Source: Bacteroidota bacterium | GTDB taxonomy: Bacteria; Bacteroidota; Ignavibacteria; Ignavibacteriales; Ignavibacteriaceae | Direction of reading: 5' to 3' | Length of the DNA stretch: 64,000 bases | Assembly (NCBI GenBank): GCA_021824565.1 | Contig: JAKAKL010000054.1 | Location: forward strand, 1 to 64,000 | In this document: piece by piece, positions 35,796 through 46,554 of the stretch | How positions within the stretch are numbered: position 1 is the stretch's first letter | Layout: the number at the start of each line of letters is the position of its first letter | Program-made: the position numbers and the translations under genes | The notes under the pieces: generated by a model | Seen by the model: the letters and a program-made list of their open reading frames with translations, nothing else | What the model was told of the DNA's origin: nothing | The model's database searches: none

Positions 35796-35815
35796 TTGAT
35801 ATTTATAAATGTCAA
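35796..35815 (+). promoter_or_regulatory. 20-bp palindrome at the MerR-type regulator promoter
   Basis: TTGATATTTA followed directly by TAAATGTCAA is an inverted repeat with one mismatch, 22 bases upstream of the regulator start. MerR proteins bind such dyads in the spacer of their own promoters, so autoregulation is plausible. The divergent lpdA promoter may lie further left in the same gap. Confidence 0.5.
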
Positions 35816-35837
35816 TTTTTATAAAGGTTATTAAGAA

Positions 35838-36284
35838 ATGTCAAAGGACGAAAACCAAAATCTTCCCATGCTCCCCATCAGGAACGCAGCAAAAATATTA
35901 GACATTTCAGTCCATACTTTAAGGATGTACGAAAGAGAAGGCTTGATAATTCCTTTCAAGAAGGAATCGAGCCACCGGCTTTATTCTTACTCAGATATCG
36001 AACGTTTGAAGTGCATTAGAAGAGCAATAAATGAAAGTAAAATTAGCATAGCGGGTATCAAAACTATTTACTCAATGATTCCATGCTATGAAATTATTAA
36101 CTGCAGTCAAACTGAAAGAGACAATTGCAAAGCTTTTCAAGAACATGAACAGCCTTGCTGGACCTACAATCATAAGAACAATCCATGTCATAAACGCGAA
36201 TGCAGAAGCTGCGAAGTTTACAATAACTATTCTGAGTGCGGGAAGATTAAAGATTTAATAAAAAATGTCCTTAGTCAAAATTAA
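35838..36284 (+). CDS. MerR-family regulator with cysteine-rich C-terminal domain
   Basis: A 148-residue regulator. The N-terminal MerR winged helix is clear ('LPIRNAAKILDISVHTLRMYEREGLIIPFKKESSHRLYSYSDIERLKCIRRAI', about 11-70). The C-terminal half holds nine cysteines, including 'CYEIINCSQTERDNC', 'QPCWTY' and 'CHKRECRSCEVY', a spacing suited to an Fe-S cluster or metal. It probably senses redox state, NO or a metal. It lies 35 bases upstream of the three-gene cytochrome operon on the same strand and is the obvious candidate regulator of it. Start: ATG 35838. Confidence 0.87.
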   Translation: MSKDENQNLPMLPIRNAAKILDISVHTLRMYEREGLIIPFKKESSHRLYSYSDIERLKCIRRAINESKISIAGIKTIYSMIPCYEIINCSQTERDNCKAFQEHEQPCWTYNHKNNPCHKRECRSCEVYNNYSECGKIKDLIKNVLSQN

Positions 36285-36319
36285 TACAGTCTTATTATTG
36301 AACTTAATCTTTTATCACG

Positions 36320-37261
36320 ATGAATTTTATTTTAATTTTGTCGCTCATTGCGACACTGAACGTTGGCGGGACAAAGCAACTTTCTCCGCAAAATTCAAAT
36401 AAGGAATTAAATGAAAAATGTTTGAAGTGTCATTCTCTTTCAACTTTAGGTTATAGAGATGAATCAAGCGGTTTGATCGTAAACCTTTCAGTTAATCCTA
36501 AAGAGTTTTATAAATCAAATCATAAAGACCTTGAATGCGTTAATTGCCATTCAAAAGATTTTCAGACTTTTCCCCACCCCGAAAAGCTAAAGCAGGAAAA
36601 CCTCTATTGCTTAGACTGCCACAAGGATGAAAAAGAGTTCAGCAAGTTTCATTTTAAAAGCATCGAAAGCGACTTTCAAAACAGCATTCATTATAAGCTC
36701 CTCGGCAGCAAATTCAATTGCTTCAGCTGCCACGATCCTCACAGCTTTAGAATTAATGCCAGAGTTAACCAGAGAGTAAGCGAAACAGTTCTTTATGATA
36801 ATCGCATCTGTTTACAATGCCACAACAACGAAACCAGCATCTATAATTTATCCGGCAAATATCTGCCGAGCTTAGACGAAGTTCATTCATGGCTGCCGCA
36901 CAGAGATTTACATTGGGCAAATGTAAGATGCATCGATTGCCACACAATCCCCACAAAAGCCGGCGTATCTCATTTAATTCTGCCAAAAGAACAAGCGCTT
37001 CAAAACTGTGTAAAGTGCCATTCAACAAATTCTATTTTATTGCAGTCGCTTTACAAATTTCAATCTCTGCAGACAAGAAATAAAGAAGGCTTTATTAATG
37101 CGGTAATATTTAACAACTCCTACGTCATCGGCGCAACAAGAAATTATTATTTGAATTTATTAAGCTTCATAATATTTGGAGTTGTCATTCTTGCTTTAAC
37201 ATTCCATGCAATTTTAAGATGGAGATCAAATAAAACGAAAGTTGAAGATGAACTATCATAA
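36320..37261 (+). CDS. Heptahaem c-type cytochrome, membrane-anchored
   Basis: A 313-residue protein with a signal peptide, seven CxxCH haem c motifs (first at C34-H38; then CVNCH, CLDCH, CFSCH, CLQCH, CIDCH, CVKCH) and a C-terminal membrane helix ('LLSFIIFGVVILALTFHAILRW'). It is predicted to sit in the periplasm, anchored by the tail, passing electrons between the cytochrome b encoded next and the octahaem cytochrome. The last helix contains a histidine that might serve as a haem ligand. Its 3' end overlaps the next gene by 14 bases. No close named family is recognised. Start: ATG 36320. Confidence 0.88.
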   Translation: MNFILILSLIATLNVGGTKQLSPQNSNKELNEKCLKCHSLSTLGYRDESSGLIVNLSVNPKEFYKSNHKDLECVNCHSKDFQTFPHPEKLKQENLYCLDCHKDEKEFSKFHFKSIESDFQNSIHYKLLGSKFNCFSCHDPHSFRINARVNQRVSETVLYDNRICLQCHNNETSIYNLSGKYLPSLDEVHSWLPHRDLHWANVRCIDCHTIPTKAGVSHLILPKEQALQNCVKCHSTNSILLQSLYKFQSLQTRNKEGFINAVIFNNSYVIGATRNYYLNLLSFIIFGVVILALTFHAILRWRSNKTKVEDELS

Positions 37262-37907
37262 AGAATATTATTATCCACTCTGGCTGCGCATTTGGCACTG
37301 GTTGAATGCTTTGCTTTTTCTTTCTTTGATTTTTACCGGTATAAATTTGCAGTATGCAAGCGTAACAGCGCCAATAATAAAATTTAAGAATGCGCTGCTT
37401 ATTCATAATGCCTCGGGAATTATTCTTACTTTAAATTATTTGTTCTTCTTCACTTTGAATATTATTACGGGAAATATTAAGCAGTACATTCCTTCAGTTA
37501 AGAATTTTTTAAGCAAATTAATTATTCAAGCAAGATTTTATTTATCTGGAATTTTTAACAAAGAAGATCATCCGTTTGAAACAAATAAAAACCAAAAATT
37601 TAATCCGCTTCAGCAAATTACCTATCTTAAGATAATGTATCTTGCTCTTCCGCTGATGATAATAACAGGCTGGGCTTTGTTGTTTCCGGAGTTTTTGATA
37701 AAACAAATTTTTGGAATTTCAGGTCTTACTCTTACAGATATTGTTCACACTGTCGATGGGTTCCTGTTGTCGATATTTATGTTCGGTCATATTTATCTTG
37801 CAACTACAGGAACAACAGTTGCGAGCAACTTTAAAGCTATGCTTACTGGCTGGCATCAAACCGAAACTCATCTAAATATAACCGGAGAGGTTACAAATGA
37901 AAAATAA
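37248..37907 (+). CDS. Di-haem cytochrome b subunit (cytochrome b561 / thiosulfate-reductase-b type)
   Basis: A 219-residue four-helix membrane protein. Candidate haem b ligands are the histidines in 'IWHWLNALLFLSLIFTGI', 'LLIHNASGIILTLNYLFFF', 'DIVHTVDGFLLSIFMFGHIYLAT'. The pattern fits the Ni-hydrogenase/thiosulfate-reductase cytochrome b family, which exchanges electrons with menaquinone. With heptahaem and octahaem cytochromes on either side, a quinol:cytochrome c oxidoreductase role is likely. Start: the frame opens with a TTG at 37242, but ATG 37248 is taken. It overlaps the upstream gene by 14 and the downstream gene by 11 bases, so translation is coupled. Confidence 0.87.
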   Translation: MNYHKEYYYPLWLRIWHWLNALLFLSLIFTGINLQYASVTAPIIKFKNALLIHNASGIILTLNYLFFFTLNIITGNIKQYIPSVKNFLSKLIIQARFYLSGIFNKEDHPFETNKNQKFNPLQQITYLKIMYLALPLMIITGWALLFPEFLIKQIFGISGLTLTDIVHTVDGFLLSIFMFGHIYLATTGTTVASNFKAMLTGWHQTETHLNITGEVTNEK

Positions 37908-40113
37908 ATTATTGAATTTTTCTAAGACTAAAAAAGGAAAAATTTCTATTATCGCAGTCGCTGTTTTATTGATTGGTTTTATTTTCACTCAATTTATATA
38001 CGAACCTTTTTTTGAGTGGTATACCGGAGTTAAAAACGGCGACCTGACTTATGATACAAGCGTTAAACTTTCAGAAAAACAATTTAACGATCTCGCAAAA
38101 AGCTTAACATACCAGGATAGACTGCAGCGCGCGGAGGAAATGACGAAGGATGAAAAAGATCCTGTTACGCGAAAAGTAAAAATTGAAATGCTTATGAATA
38201 CTCCTTCGTTCATGCACGATACGCAGTTCAATCATATAAAATACTTTAGAGACGCCGGCATCCTTCAATACAAAGGACCGGAAACATGTTTGAAATGCCA
38301 CGAAGACATTACCGTTAGGCATTCGGATGGAAGCACTGAAAAAGTTAATACGATGGATGACATCGTCAATTCAGTCCACTTTGAATTCCAAAGAATGGCA
38401 GCCGGATTTTCTACTTATGGTTTTAACGGCAAGCAGGTTAACCAAAAAGGCAGAGCTATTCCAGTCGGCAAAATTGATAGAGCCTGCGGTATCCCCGGCA
38501 GCTTTTCATGGACAGGCTGGGCAGAACTTATTGCCACTAAACCGGACAGCCTGCACGGCAAAATTCTAATGCGCAGCGAAGGATGCGGTCAATGCCATAT
38601 CGGCGGCAACTATCAGCCTGCTACCGAAAAGATGATGCCCTTCGGCGATGTTCCGAATTCTGCGAAAGAAGGAATCGACTGCCTTATTTGCCATTCGCAG
38701 ACTTATGACATGAATGATAAATACGTTATTAAAGATAAAGTAGGATTGCGCTGGAATCAGGATAGGTCTATGAAAGCTGCGCTTACTGTTACAAAGCCTT
38801 CAAATCAAAATTGTTTGTATTGTCATCAGCATAATATGGGCGGCGATACTTATTCAGGAAATGTGTCTGCACATAATTTAGGATATGAACATCCAAGAAT
38901 CCTTCATGCGGGTGCAAAACGCGGAAATCCTTTTAGTCCCGAAGAAGATGTTCACGCCGCTGCCGGAGTTAAATGTCTTGACTGTCATGTTCCAGAAGGA
39001 CATAAAATTCCGCGAGGCACAAAAGGAACTGATCTCGTTGCAAACGATTTGCCTAACAGAACTGTTGCTTGCGAAAACTGCCATACTTCTGCGCCTCATA
39101 CAAAGAATGAATTGGAACGTGTAATACTGAACGGTCACGTTGCAAGAATCGCATGCGAAACGTGCCACATACCTAGCCTAAGAGAAGATAACGTTGTTCT
39201 TAGAGATTGGGTTCATCCTACTTATAATAAAGAAGAAGGAATGTATGTATATACCGATGTCTTAAAATCCGGCAAGCCCAACATTGGCTTCACTTATCTT
39301 TGGTATAACGGCGATGGAACTTTTCTCGCCGGAGCGCTTGGAAATAATCCGAATAAAACAAACAGCTATAATCCTCTCATGGATCAAATGACAAGCATAA
39401 CCAACCCGGAAGCTCTGGATGAAATTAAAAACAACATTAAGAATGATTTTCATCTTAACGATAAGCAAGTTGCAAAATATATGCTCGCCGCTACCAATAC
39501 GCTTTCTCAGCTTACCCCGGCGATGCTTGAAAAAAGAAGAAAAGATATCGCCGATAATTTAATGACAATAAGCGATCACGGCGATAGCAAAATATATCCT
39601 TTCAAGCTCTTCAATGCTTATATGTATGAAGACATGTCAAATCAAGGTCCGTTCGGCGCGATGATTTTGCCTTTCGATTATGCCACTTATTATGAAACCG
39701 GCAATTCGCTCGAAGCTGTTAAAGTTGCCATACAAAATCCAATCGTAAAAAGAATGTATCAATATCCATTTAAAAAATATATGATGGATGACTTCATGCA
39801 TTATTTCGGCGTTGATACATGGTCTGATGTATATCCGATTGATAACAAAGGTAATTTGAGAAATGTTGAACCGCACTGGATGAGACAGTTCGGAACTCTG
39901 ATGATAAATCACTCCATTAAAAAAGAAGGACTGGCTTGCGCTTCATGCCATTCTCCTAACGGAATATTAGACTTCAAGAAACTTGGATATTCTCCGGAAA
40001 GAGTAAAAGATCTGGAACATCTTCCCGAATTGAAATATTTCAAATCAAAACCAAATAAAGTTGCCGAGCATAAAAAAGAAACTAAGAAGACAGTCGCGCT
40101 AAACTTTAAATAA
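37897..40113 (+). CDS. Octahaem c-type cytochrome with N-terminal membrane anchor
   Basis: A 738-residue protein with one N-terminal helix (about 17-36) and eight CxxCH sites beginning at C131, C230, C262, C306, C360, C392, C420 and C681. The close pair 'CGQCH ... DCLICH' and the widely spaced last haem recall the octahaem tetrathionate-reductase / hydroxylamine-oxidoreductase superfamily. The protein is longer than those enzymes, and a 260-residue haem-free segment separates haems 7 and 8. 'RACGIPGSFSWTGW' (196-208) has a single Cys that could be near an active site. It is probably a terminal reductase or electron conduit; the substrate is unknown. Start: ATG 37897. Confidence 0.87.
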   Translation: MKNKLLNFSKTKKGKISIIAVAVLLIGFIFTQFIYEPFFEWYTGVKNGDLTYDTSVKLSEKQFNDLAKSLTYQDRLQRAEEMTKDEKDPVTRKVKIEMLMNTPSFMHDTQFNHIKYFRDAGILQYKGPETCLKCHEDITVRHSDGSTEKVNTMDDIVNSVHFEFQRMAAGFSTYGFNGKQVNQKGRAIPVGKIDRACGIPGSFSWTGWAELIATKPDSLHGKILMRSEGCGQCHIGGNYQPATEKMMPFGDVPNSAKEGIDCLICHSQTYDMNDKYVIKDKVGLRWNQDRSMKAALTVTKPSNQNCLYCHQHNMGGDTYSGNVSAHNLGYEHPRILHAGAKRGNPFSPEEDVHAAAGVKCLDCHVPEGHKIPRGTKGTDLVANDLPNRTVACENCHTSAPHTKNELERVILNGHVARIACETCHIPSLREDNVVLRDWVHPTYNKEEGMYVYTDVLKSGKPNIGFTYLWYNGDGTFLAGALGNNPNKTNSYNPLMDQMTSITNPEALDEIKNNIKNDFHLNDKQVAKYMLAATNTLSQLTPAMLEKRRKDIADNLMTISDHGDSKIYPFKLFNAYMYEDMSNQGPFGAMILPFDYATYYETGNSLEAVKVAIQNPIVKRMYQYPFKKYMMDDFMHYFGVDTWSDVYPIDNKGNLRNVEPHWMRQFGTLMINHSIKKEGLACASCHSPNGILDFKKLGYSPERVKDLEHLPELKYFKSKPNKVAEHKKETKKTVALNFK

Positions 40114-40133
40114 AAATTAAATCCATTTCTAAA

Positions 40134-40170
40134 AGAGATTGCGTTCTTATAAGGAGGCAGTCTCTTTTTT
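40134..40170 (+). terminator. Terminator of the cytochrome operon
   Basis: AGAGATTGC (40134-40142) pairs with GCAGTCTCT (40157-40165) with one G-U, followed by a run of T residues. It is 20 bases past the octahaem stop and also just beyond the convergent gene ending at 40173. Confidence 0.85.
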
Positions 40171-44299: not shown

Positions 44300-45418
44300 T
44301 TATTCCGTTGGCTCTATTTCTTGATAGTTAAATTCTACTTTAGTTTGTCTAATTATTTCATCAAGAATTTCAACAAGTTTTTTCTTTTTTACACAGTCAT
44401 CGAAAATCTTTAGTAGTTTCGGTATGTTTATTACTTCTTCGATTGAACTCATGTATTTATTTACTATCTCTCTGACAGAATAAAGTTGTTCTGCATTTGA
44501 TTTTAAAAGAGCGGTAATTTCATTTTCTGTAAGATTGGTTTTTACAACAAAAGTAATTGGATAGCGTTCAATTTTATCAATATCTAAAAAATATTTTTTA
44601 ACATCTAATGTTTCTGTAACTTGGAAAAACCTTCCTAATGGTTTCATTACAAAGTCGATTCCGCCATCATTGGCGTTTGTCCTTCCGGTCTTAAATAATT
44701 TTAGATAATCTTCTTTAATTTTAGTCTGCTCAAATCCCCAAAATATTTTTTGATCTTTATAATATGAACGAAGAATAGAATAGCTGACTATTTCAAATAA
44801 TCTTGCATCAACGTTTGGTTGTAAAAGACTTTTTATAAACTCTTGTACTTTAGAAGATTTTTTACCCTCTATCTTTTGTAATTCTATACAACTTGAAATA
44901 AATCTCTCGAAGGAAACGCGTTTTGTTTTTACATATTCATCAATTATTTCAAGAATTGATTCAGCGACATTATGTTGTTTCTTGGCAAGAGAAATCTTAA
45001 TAAGATTTTCATTAATCCAGTATCTATTTGTTTCCAGATTTCGCAAGATTGGTATGTAGCTGGAAGTCGGAAAGAATTTTTGGAATTCAGAGTTCACCCT
45101 ATTATTTAATGCGTGGTTTTGTAATTTACTTCCGAAAGGTAGCTCTCTTTGACGTGTAAATATTTTTGAATATTCAGCTCCTTTATAGTCTTTGTATTTA
45201 CCCGATTTATCAAAACCTTTTTTAAGATAATCTTCAATTAAAACATAAATTGCGTACAGATTAGCAAAACTTGATCTCGCTTTTGAACCCCTTTCAGCAG
45301 ATTTAGTCTTGAAGTTGATATATTGTAAAAGTTCACTTTTTTCATAAATATCTTCGGAATTTTCATTATAGTTTTTTCTCAGAATTCCTTTGATTTTTTG
45401 TGTGAAGGTATGTTCCAT
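44300..45418 (-). CDS. Type II restriction endonuclease (predicted)
   Basis: A 372-residue protein paired with an adenine methyltransferase; its first 53 bases overlap the methyltransferase's end. The C-terminal half holds a probable PD-(D/E)xK-type core: 'GRTNANDGGIDFVMKPLGRFFQVTET' gives D-x-x-x-D followed by a beta strand and Q-V-T-E, a Q-for-E variant seen in several restriction enzymes. The N-terminal half is helical and may be the DNA-reading part. The methyltransferase resembles YhdJ (ATGCAT), so the enzyme may be of the AvaIII/NsiI specificity; this is inference. Start: ATG 45418; no later ATG fits. Confidence 0.78.
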   Translation of the reverse strand: MEHTFTQKIKGILRKNYNENSEDIYEKSELLQYINFKTKSAERGSKARSSFANLYAIYVLIEDYLKKGFDKSGKYKDYKGAEYSKIFTRQRELPFGSKLQNHALNNRVNSEFQKFFPTSSYIPILRNLETNRYWINENLIKISLAKKQHNVAESILEIIDEYVKTKRVSFERFISSCIELQKIEGKKSSKVQEFIKSLLQPNVDARLFEIVSYSILRSYYKDQKIFWGFEQTKIKEDYLKLFKTGRTNANDGGIDFVMKPLGRFFQVTETLDVKKYFLDIDKIERYPITFVVKTNLTENEITALLKSNAEQLYSVREIVNKYMSSIEEVINIPKLLKIFDDCVKKKKLVEILDEIIRQTKVEFNYQEIEPTE

Positions 45419-46277
45419 AATTCGTCTCGAAAAGTTTAAATTGATTTGAATTTATTTTTTGTAACTCATAAGTTTTTAGTTCACGTACTAGTTTCTCACC
45501 TTTATATGTATCGCTAAGTCCAAGCCTTCTTAGCCCTATCTTTATGTAGTCTTCTTGTAATTCAATTGAAATAGATTTTCTATGGAGAATTTGGGCAACG
45601 TAGGCGGTCGTAAAAGCTCCCGCAAATGGATCTAAAATTATATCACCTTCATTTGAACTAGCCTTTATTATTCTCTCTAACAGCGCTATAGGTTTTTGAG
45701 TAGGATGATTTTCATATTCATCCATTCTGTATCGAACTCTCGAGAACTCCCATACATTACCAGGTACTTTTTCTGAATTGTAAATTTGGGGAGGATTCTT
45801 TCTATAGTCGATAAGCTTTCGCTTCGCTCCCGTCTTGGCTTCAACTAATATATCATCAGAGTTGAAAGTATAATTGTCTGCATCTTTGACGCAAAATAAA
45901 ATTGGTTCGTATAATGAACCGTAGTATTTTTTAGCTTGAACACCAGAACTATCATAATACCAGACAATTCTTGATAGAATATTAATTTTATCTCTTAAAA
46001 ATATATCGAAGTATGGCATAAATTGAGTTGACGTCATTACGTAAAGGCTGCCGTTTCTCTTCAATTTTTTAATACATAATTGAAGCCATTCATAGCACCA
46101 TTCCAAATAATCTTCATCCTTATCCCATTTATCTCTATGCCCATTGAAATTTTTTCCAATGTTATAAGGTGGATCTATAAAAATAAGGTCAACTGAATTA
46201 TCATCTACGAAATCTTTTAGCACTTCTACTGAGTCACCATTTATTATCTTATGCTGTTCACTTCCTAAGAATTCCAT
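45366..46277 (-). CDS. Adenine-specific DNA methyltransferase, beta class (YhdJ-like)
   Basis: A 303-residue N6-adenine methyltransferase. The catalytic motif IV, D35-P-P-Y, precedes the SAM-binding motif 'LDPFAGAFTTAYVA', the beta-class order. 'RIVWYYDSSGVQAKKYYGSLYEPILFCVKD', 'AKTGAKRKLIDYRKNPPQIYN' and 'RYRMDEYENHPTQKP' closely match the YhdJ/M.EcoKII group, which modifies ATGCAT. It should protect host sites from the overlapping endonuclease. Start: the frame opens at 46298, but ATG 46277 has AAGGAAA at six bases. Upstream lies a repeat-filled, gene-free region. Confidence 0.9.
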   Translation of the reverse strand: MEFLGSEQHKIINGDSVEVLKDFVDDNSVDLIFIDPPYNIGKNFNGHRDKWDKDEDYLEWCYEWLQLCIKKLKRNGSLYVMTSTQFMPYFDIFLRDKINILSRIVWYYDSSGVQAKKYYGSLYEPILFCVKDADNYTFNSDDILVEAKTGAKRKLIDYRKNPPQIYNSEKVPGNVWEFSRVRYRMDEYENHPTQKPIALLERIIKASSNEGDIILDPFAGAFTTAYVAQILHRKSISIELQEDYIKIGLRRLGLSDTYKGEKLVRELKTYELQKINSNQFKLFETNYGTYLHTKNQRNSEKKL

Positions 46278-46554
46278 CAACTTTCCTTTTTTATGCAAAT
46301 ATAACTAATATTAAAATTTGATTCATTTTTTAACTTTCAAACTTGATAAAAAATATTATAGCTGATTCCCCTCAATAAATTATTTCCGCCGTCATAGTAC
46401 GCTCCGACTTTATCAAGTGACAATGCTATTATAGAAAAACCTCTTCAATGCTTAGCATATTTCACTCACCATTTCACAGACTCGTTTCCCCGCCTGTCAT
46501 GGACCATTCCATAACAGAATAATTCTAACTAAGCTTAGAAGTTATCATTTCGCA

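Follow-up and report, generated by a model that had tools for sequence, protein, structure and literature searches.

We analysed a 64,000-nucleotide window of the Bacteroidota bacterium assembly GCA_021824565.1 (Ignavibacteriaceae; contig JAKAKL010000054.1, positions 1 to 64,000), in which a MerR-family regulator gene, preceded by a 20-bp palindrome, is followed by a module of three genes for a heptahaem c-type cytochrome, a cytochrome b and an octahaem c-type cytochrome. We propose, at a probability of roughly 0.55, that this operon encodes a three-part quinol:sulfur-compound reductase of the OTR superfamily, which would work with haem only and without molybdenum. The catalytic partner that an earlier reading of this DNA (the original prediction) could not recognise is most likely the octahaem protein itself, which would be fed by a Cbc-like quinol dehydrogenase. 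An oxidised sulfur compound is the most probable substrate, because the MerR family and its operator adjoin PhsA/PsrA-like, OTR and sulfide:quinone reductase (SQR) operons elsewhere in the order.

The three genes overlap between positions 36320 and 40113, first by 14 nt (20 nt if the cytochrome b gene has the earlier of its two possible starts) and then by 11 nt. Seven CXXCH motifs in the first cytochrome and eight in the last give the 15 haem c sites that had been predicted. The same prediction named a di-haem b membrane subunit, and a cytochrome b was confirmed: the middle protein matches PF01292, and its His residues 17, 53, 167 and 181 are kept in 12/12 aligned sequences (the window, ten module relatives with L039 left out, and the cytochrome b that accompanies an OTR elsewhere in the same genome), which fits two b haems.

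The octahaem protein has TIGR04315 (OTR) as its best family match, with 86.2 bits, and the Shewanella OTR (1SP3) as its best match in the PDB (E 2.2e-15, best stretch residues 229-480). Two of its relatives scored 84.6 and 63.5 bits against TIGR04315, and hhalign gave the relationship to OTR a probability of 99.5%. In a tree of 45 proteins (44 different), a branch supported at 98/97 separates the 14 octahaem members from the rest, at a place where, as the tool warned, long branches meet. By these sequence comparisons the octahaem protein is a clade of its own, remotely related to OTR. We found no characterised complex with close similarity over the full length, and the uncharacterised quinol-linked reductase originally suggested is thus the best-supported reading. 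Close kinship to HAO or NrfA was considered and rejected: only short stretches match NrfA-type models or PDB chains, below cut-offs, and no HAO or ONR entry is among the Pfam, NCBIfam and PDB matches listed for the protein.

The octahaem protein and OTR (SO4144, PDB 1SP3) share the order of their eight CXXCH motifs. They also have in common six His outside the motifs, a Cys that precedes haem 2, and an extended haem-free segment ahead of haem 8. This segment had been predicted to span 260 residues and to set the protein apart from known octahaem reductases. It is present, with 256 residues here and 210-260 over the members, but it is not foreign to such enzymes, as OTRs have 164-178 residues in the same place, the intermediate pair L004/L005 182 and the fused protein of L019 209. 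The latter locus (in G180) encodes an 899-aa chain that joins an OTR-like octahaem part to an apparent cytochrome b part. The octahaem protein differs from OTR in the position of its first haem motif (residue 131, against about 39-85), in 21 additional residues from haem 4 to the Lys discussed below and 78-92 before haem 8, and in having a dedicated heptahaem partner. The same genome also holds a true OTR on contig C137 (L060:7036-10138; 581 bits to TIGR04315), whose gene is followed by its own PhsC-like cytochrome b gene and then by genes resembling, by eye, the Sulf_transp proteins of L104. The OTR loci with an adjacent MerR gene in four relatives (L104, L110, L111, L112) have the same order of cytochrome b and then Sulf_transp-type genes, and this shared arrangement suggests a sulfur role for OTR.

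One account (PMC11024163) describes haem 2 of OTR as the catalytic, Lys-ligated haem, and MmcA, an OTR relative that acts as an electron conduit, as having lost both haem motif 2 and the Lys. The octahaem protein keeps motif 2, and its C197, aligned with the Cys before OTR haem motif 2, is C in 44/45 rows. K341 is the only invariant Lys within residues 1-560 (14/14 members). Together with an Arg it makes up a K-R pair that lies between haems 4 and 5, the place of KHG in OTRs, and the next Gly is absent in L003. The intermediate octahaem pair L004/L005 can be aligned with the octahaem protein over almost the full length (E 1.3e-62), which places K203 of the pair opposite K341; K203 is in turn matched to the Lys of KHG in OTRs. 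We take that OTR Lys to be number 153, on which a literature search turned up papers that were for the most part unrelated. The octahaem members share eight invariant His outside the motifs, enough for seven bis-His haems. By way of the intermediate pair, K341 is likely to be the ligand of haem 2. In the mechanism that we propose, (mena)quinol would be oxidised at the cytochrome b and its electrons would enter the two b haems, pass to the heptahaem cytochrome on the periplasmic face and then to the c haems of the membrane-anchored octahaem protein, the three proteins presumably forming a complex. Haem 2 would bind and reduce the substrate, with K341 as its ligand and Cys197 nearby, as in OTR. 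The oxidised sulfur compound may be tetrathionate, polysulfide, thiosulfate or a related chalcogen oxyanion, and the MerR regulator would respond to such compounds.

The original prediction also allowed for an electron conduit, that is, a Cbc-type quinol dehydrogenase whose octahaem protein, like MmcA, passes electrons to periplasmic or outer-membrane carriers (for Fe(III), electrodes or partner cells). CbcBA consists of a multihaem c-type cytochrome and a di-haem cytochrome b. CbcL is described as a nine-haem c domain on a membrane domain with six helices and two b haems, with PpcA as its proposed partner (PMC9129911). Our module resembles both at the level of architecture, at which they were compared, in that a multihaem c subunit is paired with a di-haem cytochrome b or, as in CbcL, fused to it, and it differs from CbcL in its seven c haems and in the OTR-like protein encoded alongside. 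A pure conduit is nevertheless unlikely, because haem motif 2, the invariant Cys and probably the OTR Lys, for which the invariant K341 is the candidate, are retained, whereas MmcA, although OTR-related and multihaem like our protein, lost motif 2 and the Lys (PMC11024163, the same account). Against TIGR04314 (MmcA/methano7heme) the octahaem protein scores 32 bits, with a cut-off of 250. The regulator family also points to small-substrate reductases, and by eye we noticed no porin-cytochrome genes in the flanks, the genome not having been searched for them.

The cassette recurs in other genomes (G denotes genomes and L loci below). A contig scan for octahaem relatives gave 9 loci, and in a phylum sample 52/395 genomes had octahaem matches, near full-length in two (the genome of the window and G066). 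Among 164 genomes of the order, 13 of them from the genus, ten had a match at E <= 1e-30; the match was full-length in nine and of the shorter, intermediate type in one (G074). With the loci of G409, G411, G412 and G414 counted once together with L036, L035, L032 and L033, the octahaem clade comprises the window and 13 further loci, titled, where a title exists, as Bacteroidetes, Chlorobiota, Calditrichaceae/Calditrichota or Gemmatimonadetes. Eight CXXCH motifs are found in 13 of the 14 octahaem members; L039, ended by its contig, has seven. The first cytochrome has seven in 11 of the 14 loci, six in L058 and L059, and five plus a CX3CH in L040. Twelve of the 14 have a cytochrome b gene, separate in ten (split over two frames in L039) and fused with the heptahaem cytochrome into one protein in L041 and L057. 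In L058 and L059 no cytochrome b lies between the two cytochromes, and the octahaem gene of L058 is followed by a gene that by eye is Rieske-like and by one for an 11-haem cytochrome b. What stays constant across the loci is thus the octahaem protein, and the part that oxidises quinol seems to vary.

The type of 11-haem cytochrome b that adjoins the octahaem gene in L058 (L058:11143-13914) has ExtM/ExtP-like parts and, together with a Rieske-like gene, also adjoins PhsA-like operons (L102:3433-6147 and relatives). Downstream of the octahaem gene in L032 and L035 there are convergent genes that by eye resemble those for the two subunits of cytochrome bd oxidase; L033 has a truncated piece.

The main functional clue came from the regulator and its dyad, on which the interest of the original prediction was well placed. 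The regulator matches PF13411, the MerR winged helix, with 57.5 bits (cut-off 21.6). HspR is its best MerR equivalog at 57.9 bits, below the cut-off of 105, and no equivalog cut-off (HspR, MerR, SoxR, CueR and others) is reached. Of the nine C-terminal Cys that had been predicted, all nine exist but eight are C-terminal (83, 89, 97, 107, 117, 122, 125 and 134), C59 lying in the DNA-binding half. Each of the eight is kept in 48-51 of 51 aligned MerR proteins. This Cys-rich part has no Pfam or NCBIfam match; we presume a likeness to the 'two-CW domain', a name for which a literature search found nothing. The AlphaFold model of the regulator (pLDDT 59, most of the Cys-rich part <50) was not used.

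This MerR family occurs in 94/164 genomes of the order and 12/13 of the genus. We studied the neighbours of 45 intact MerR genes from 43 of the 44 stretches L092-L135, taken around part of the >100 matches listed; L104, L110, L111 and L112 were chosen for a nearby OTR, and a contig-end MerR fragment in L132 was dropped by the length filter. Neighbours were labelled by phmmer matches to 13 reference proteins, with the Rieske, esterase-type and some Mod/Moa names given by eye or likeness. PhsA/PsrA-like, OTR or SQR genes adjoin 37/45 MerR genes, or 33/41 without the four OTR-chosen stretches. Within the next two same-strand genes, 24 MerR genes have a PhsA/PsrA-like gene, 7 an OTR gene, 6 a type III SQR gene and 8 none of these, four of the latter being at the apparent window position. 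Typed examples after MerR include Sulf_transp, NrfD, DsrE-type and rhodanese genes, and an SQR-III match above its cut-off. A MerR gene of Melioribacter roseus, Mros1773, adjoins psrABC (PMC3534657), a situation like that of the 24/45 MerR genes here with a PhsA/PsrA-like neighbour. It was compared by its description only, which in the portion available to us mentions no Cys-rich part, operator or octahaem module.

The predicted 20-bp dyad at the regulator promoter was confirmed. It is palindromic in 18/20 positions and a perfect palindrome in three genus relatives, and the five aligned genus loci share the conserved block TTGGCA...TTGATATTTATAAATATCAA upstream of merR, with two changes in L035. 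The chance figure for the window dyad is 0.03, which applies to that one pattern and not to palindromes in general; because the dyad is conserved before the merR genes of relatives, we rejected it as a chance feature. Upstream of 49 MerR genes, from which the window operator (a 19/20 match) was left out, the best 20-mer matched at least 17 positions in 35/49. Among 470 upstream regions of other genes, one reached this level (18 positions; next best 15), and it heads a Moa-type operon. At least 17 positions were matched in 19/24 PhsA-linked, 6/7 OTR-linked, 4/8 unlinked and 4/4 module-linked MerR genes.

The operator also has copies in trans, ahead of PhsA-like, ModABC and Moa genes (Mod and Moa types were assigned from L157 and L159). 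In G406, G407, G408 and G413 the ortholog of the window MerR stands alone, and operator copies lie before PhsA-like genes (L154, L156, L158, L161; 0-1 mismatch) and between Rieske/11-haem and Mod-type genes (L153, L155, L157; 0 mismatches). G410 and G415 have copies before the Rieske/Mod pair (L160, 0 mismatches) and before Moa-type operons (L159, L160; 2 mismatches). The sole other copy within two mismatches in the window's genome is inside a gene; a dyad also lies inside a gene in L117, a stretch without MerR.

In this genus the module seems to take over the role of the molybdenum enzyme. It is present in 5/13 genomes (G000, G409, G411, G412, G414) and a PhsA-like gene in 6/13 (G406, G407, G408, G410, G413, G415), with both in 0/13 (P 0.016, a value that ignores phylogeny and the incompleteness of the genomes, 79-99.8%). 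G405 has a MerR-linked OTR, G000 also has an OTR, and in G416 (85% complete) we found no module, PhsA-like gene, OTR or MerR. At L098 the MerR gene directly adjoins the esterase-type gene that in the window lies downstream of the module, so that the module seems to have been gained or lost at this site. The module might have been inserted by chance behind a resident MerR gene, with independent regulation and a substrate unrelated to the sulfur regulon. Genus members without the module keep MerR at the apparent same place (L093, L095, L096, L098), and 9/14 module loci have no intact adjacent MerR. We hold chance insertion to be quite improbable in view of the 31-40 nt spacing and conserved operator at the five MerR-linked loci, of the non-overlap with PhsA-like genes in the genus, and of G465, in which a single 30-kb contig carries the octahaem gene as well as a cluster of MerR, PhsA-like and Sulf_transp genes. 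Upstream of the module in L034 (L034:5000-5410), a merR remnant is degenerate, with several stops, and the module frames are open.

A wider reading, which we offer tentatively, is that an all-haem sulfur reductase might replace a PhsA/PsrA-type molybdoenzyme within one regulon. This regulon would be governed by an undescribed MerR class, whose eight-Cys part may sense reactive sulfur (or an Fe-S or molybdenum-sulfur signal) and act through one 20-bp operator common to Phs-like, OTR, molybdenum-uptake, molybdenum-cofactor and some SQR operons.

Several observations weigh against an OTR-type sulfur reductase. The octahaem protein does not reach the TIGR04315 cut-off of 375. Direct alignments put K341 in a gap, with the OTR Lys opposite a variable residue, and the two Lys are joined only via L004/L005; an AlphaFold model of the octahaem protein from 10 sequences (pLDDT 37) was not used for haem ligation. 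The MerR-linked PhsA-like proteins score below the PhsA cut-off (536 and 524 vs 694), so that their substrate is not certain. The account of M. roseus, in the part available, reports no stimulation by sulfur, thiosulfate or sulfite and proposes arsenate as a substrate (PMC3534657). SQR-linked MerR genes carry the operator in only 2/6 cases, and outside the genus G491 and G465 carry both the module and PhsA-like genes. An intact adjacent MerR is found at only 5/14 module loci, and the sulfur link is therefore a genus-level one plus the one sulfur cluster of G465.

We consider it quite improbable that the module is a nitrogen-oxide reductase acting on nitrite or hydroxylamine: OTR is reported to reduce nitrite, hydroxylamine and tetrathionate in vitro (PMC4484225), as is a related enzyme (PMC6449678), whereas the regulator and operator adjoin sulfur and molybdenum genes, a weak argument given that our labels covered sulfur, molybdenum and cassette genes and nitrogen-oxide genes were not searched.

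Table 1. Features of the MerR-module locus, in window positions.
Feature	Position	Strand	Remark
20-bp operator-like palindrome TTGATATTTATAAATGTCAA	35796..35815	none	3' end 22 nt before merR start
MerR-family regulator, 148 aa, HspR-like helix-turn-helix and 8-Cys C-terminal part	35838..36284	+	
Regulator C-terminal part with 8 conserved Cys (C83-C134)	36084..36239	+	
Heptahaem c-type cytochrome, 313 aa, 7 CXXCH	36320..37261	+	C-terminal membrane helix, residues 280-298 (hydropathy)
Cytochrome b, PF01292, PhsC-like, 219 aa from ATG 37248	37248..37907	+	alternative TTG start 37242
Membrane-anchored octahaem c-type cytochrome, 738 aa, OTR-related, proposed terminal reductase	37897..40113	+	
Octahaem N-terminal membrane helix, residues 16-34	37942..37998	+	hydropathy
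C197, invariant non-haem Cys of octahaem protein	38485..38487	+	aligned with Cys before OTR haem motif 2
K341 of octahaem protein, proposed ligand of putative catalytic haem 2	38917..38919	+	
Haem-free segment, 256 residues, between octahaem haem motifs 7 and 8	39169..39936	+	enlarged form of the OTR one

Between the module and the downstream esterase-type gene, the window has a 110-aa frame on the minus strand. By eye, the genes at 44300-46298 comprise one like a DNA methyltransferase and, overlapping it, a 372-aa gene, perhaps for its restriction partner.

Each part of the system has known kin, and in the searches made we found no description of a Cbc-like quinol dehydrogenase in fixed association with an octahaem protein of the OTR type, or of the Cys-rich MerR class with its operator. 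A partial literature search, which is no proof of absence, gave no published account of the cassette or of a sulfur-linked Cys-rich MerR save the MerR beside M. roseus psrABC. The function of the OTR superfamily has been called cryptic in one account (PMC11024163). If our proposal is correct, the module would be a respiratory enzyme in which a Cbc-like quinol dehydrogenase feeds an OTR-type reductase directly, and would offer a molybdenum-free way to respire sulfur compounds. It would also give the OTR superfamily a physiological context in sulfur metabolism, and the regulator and its operator would serve as markers for sulfur-respiration genes in many uncultured relatives.

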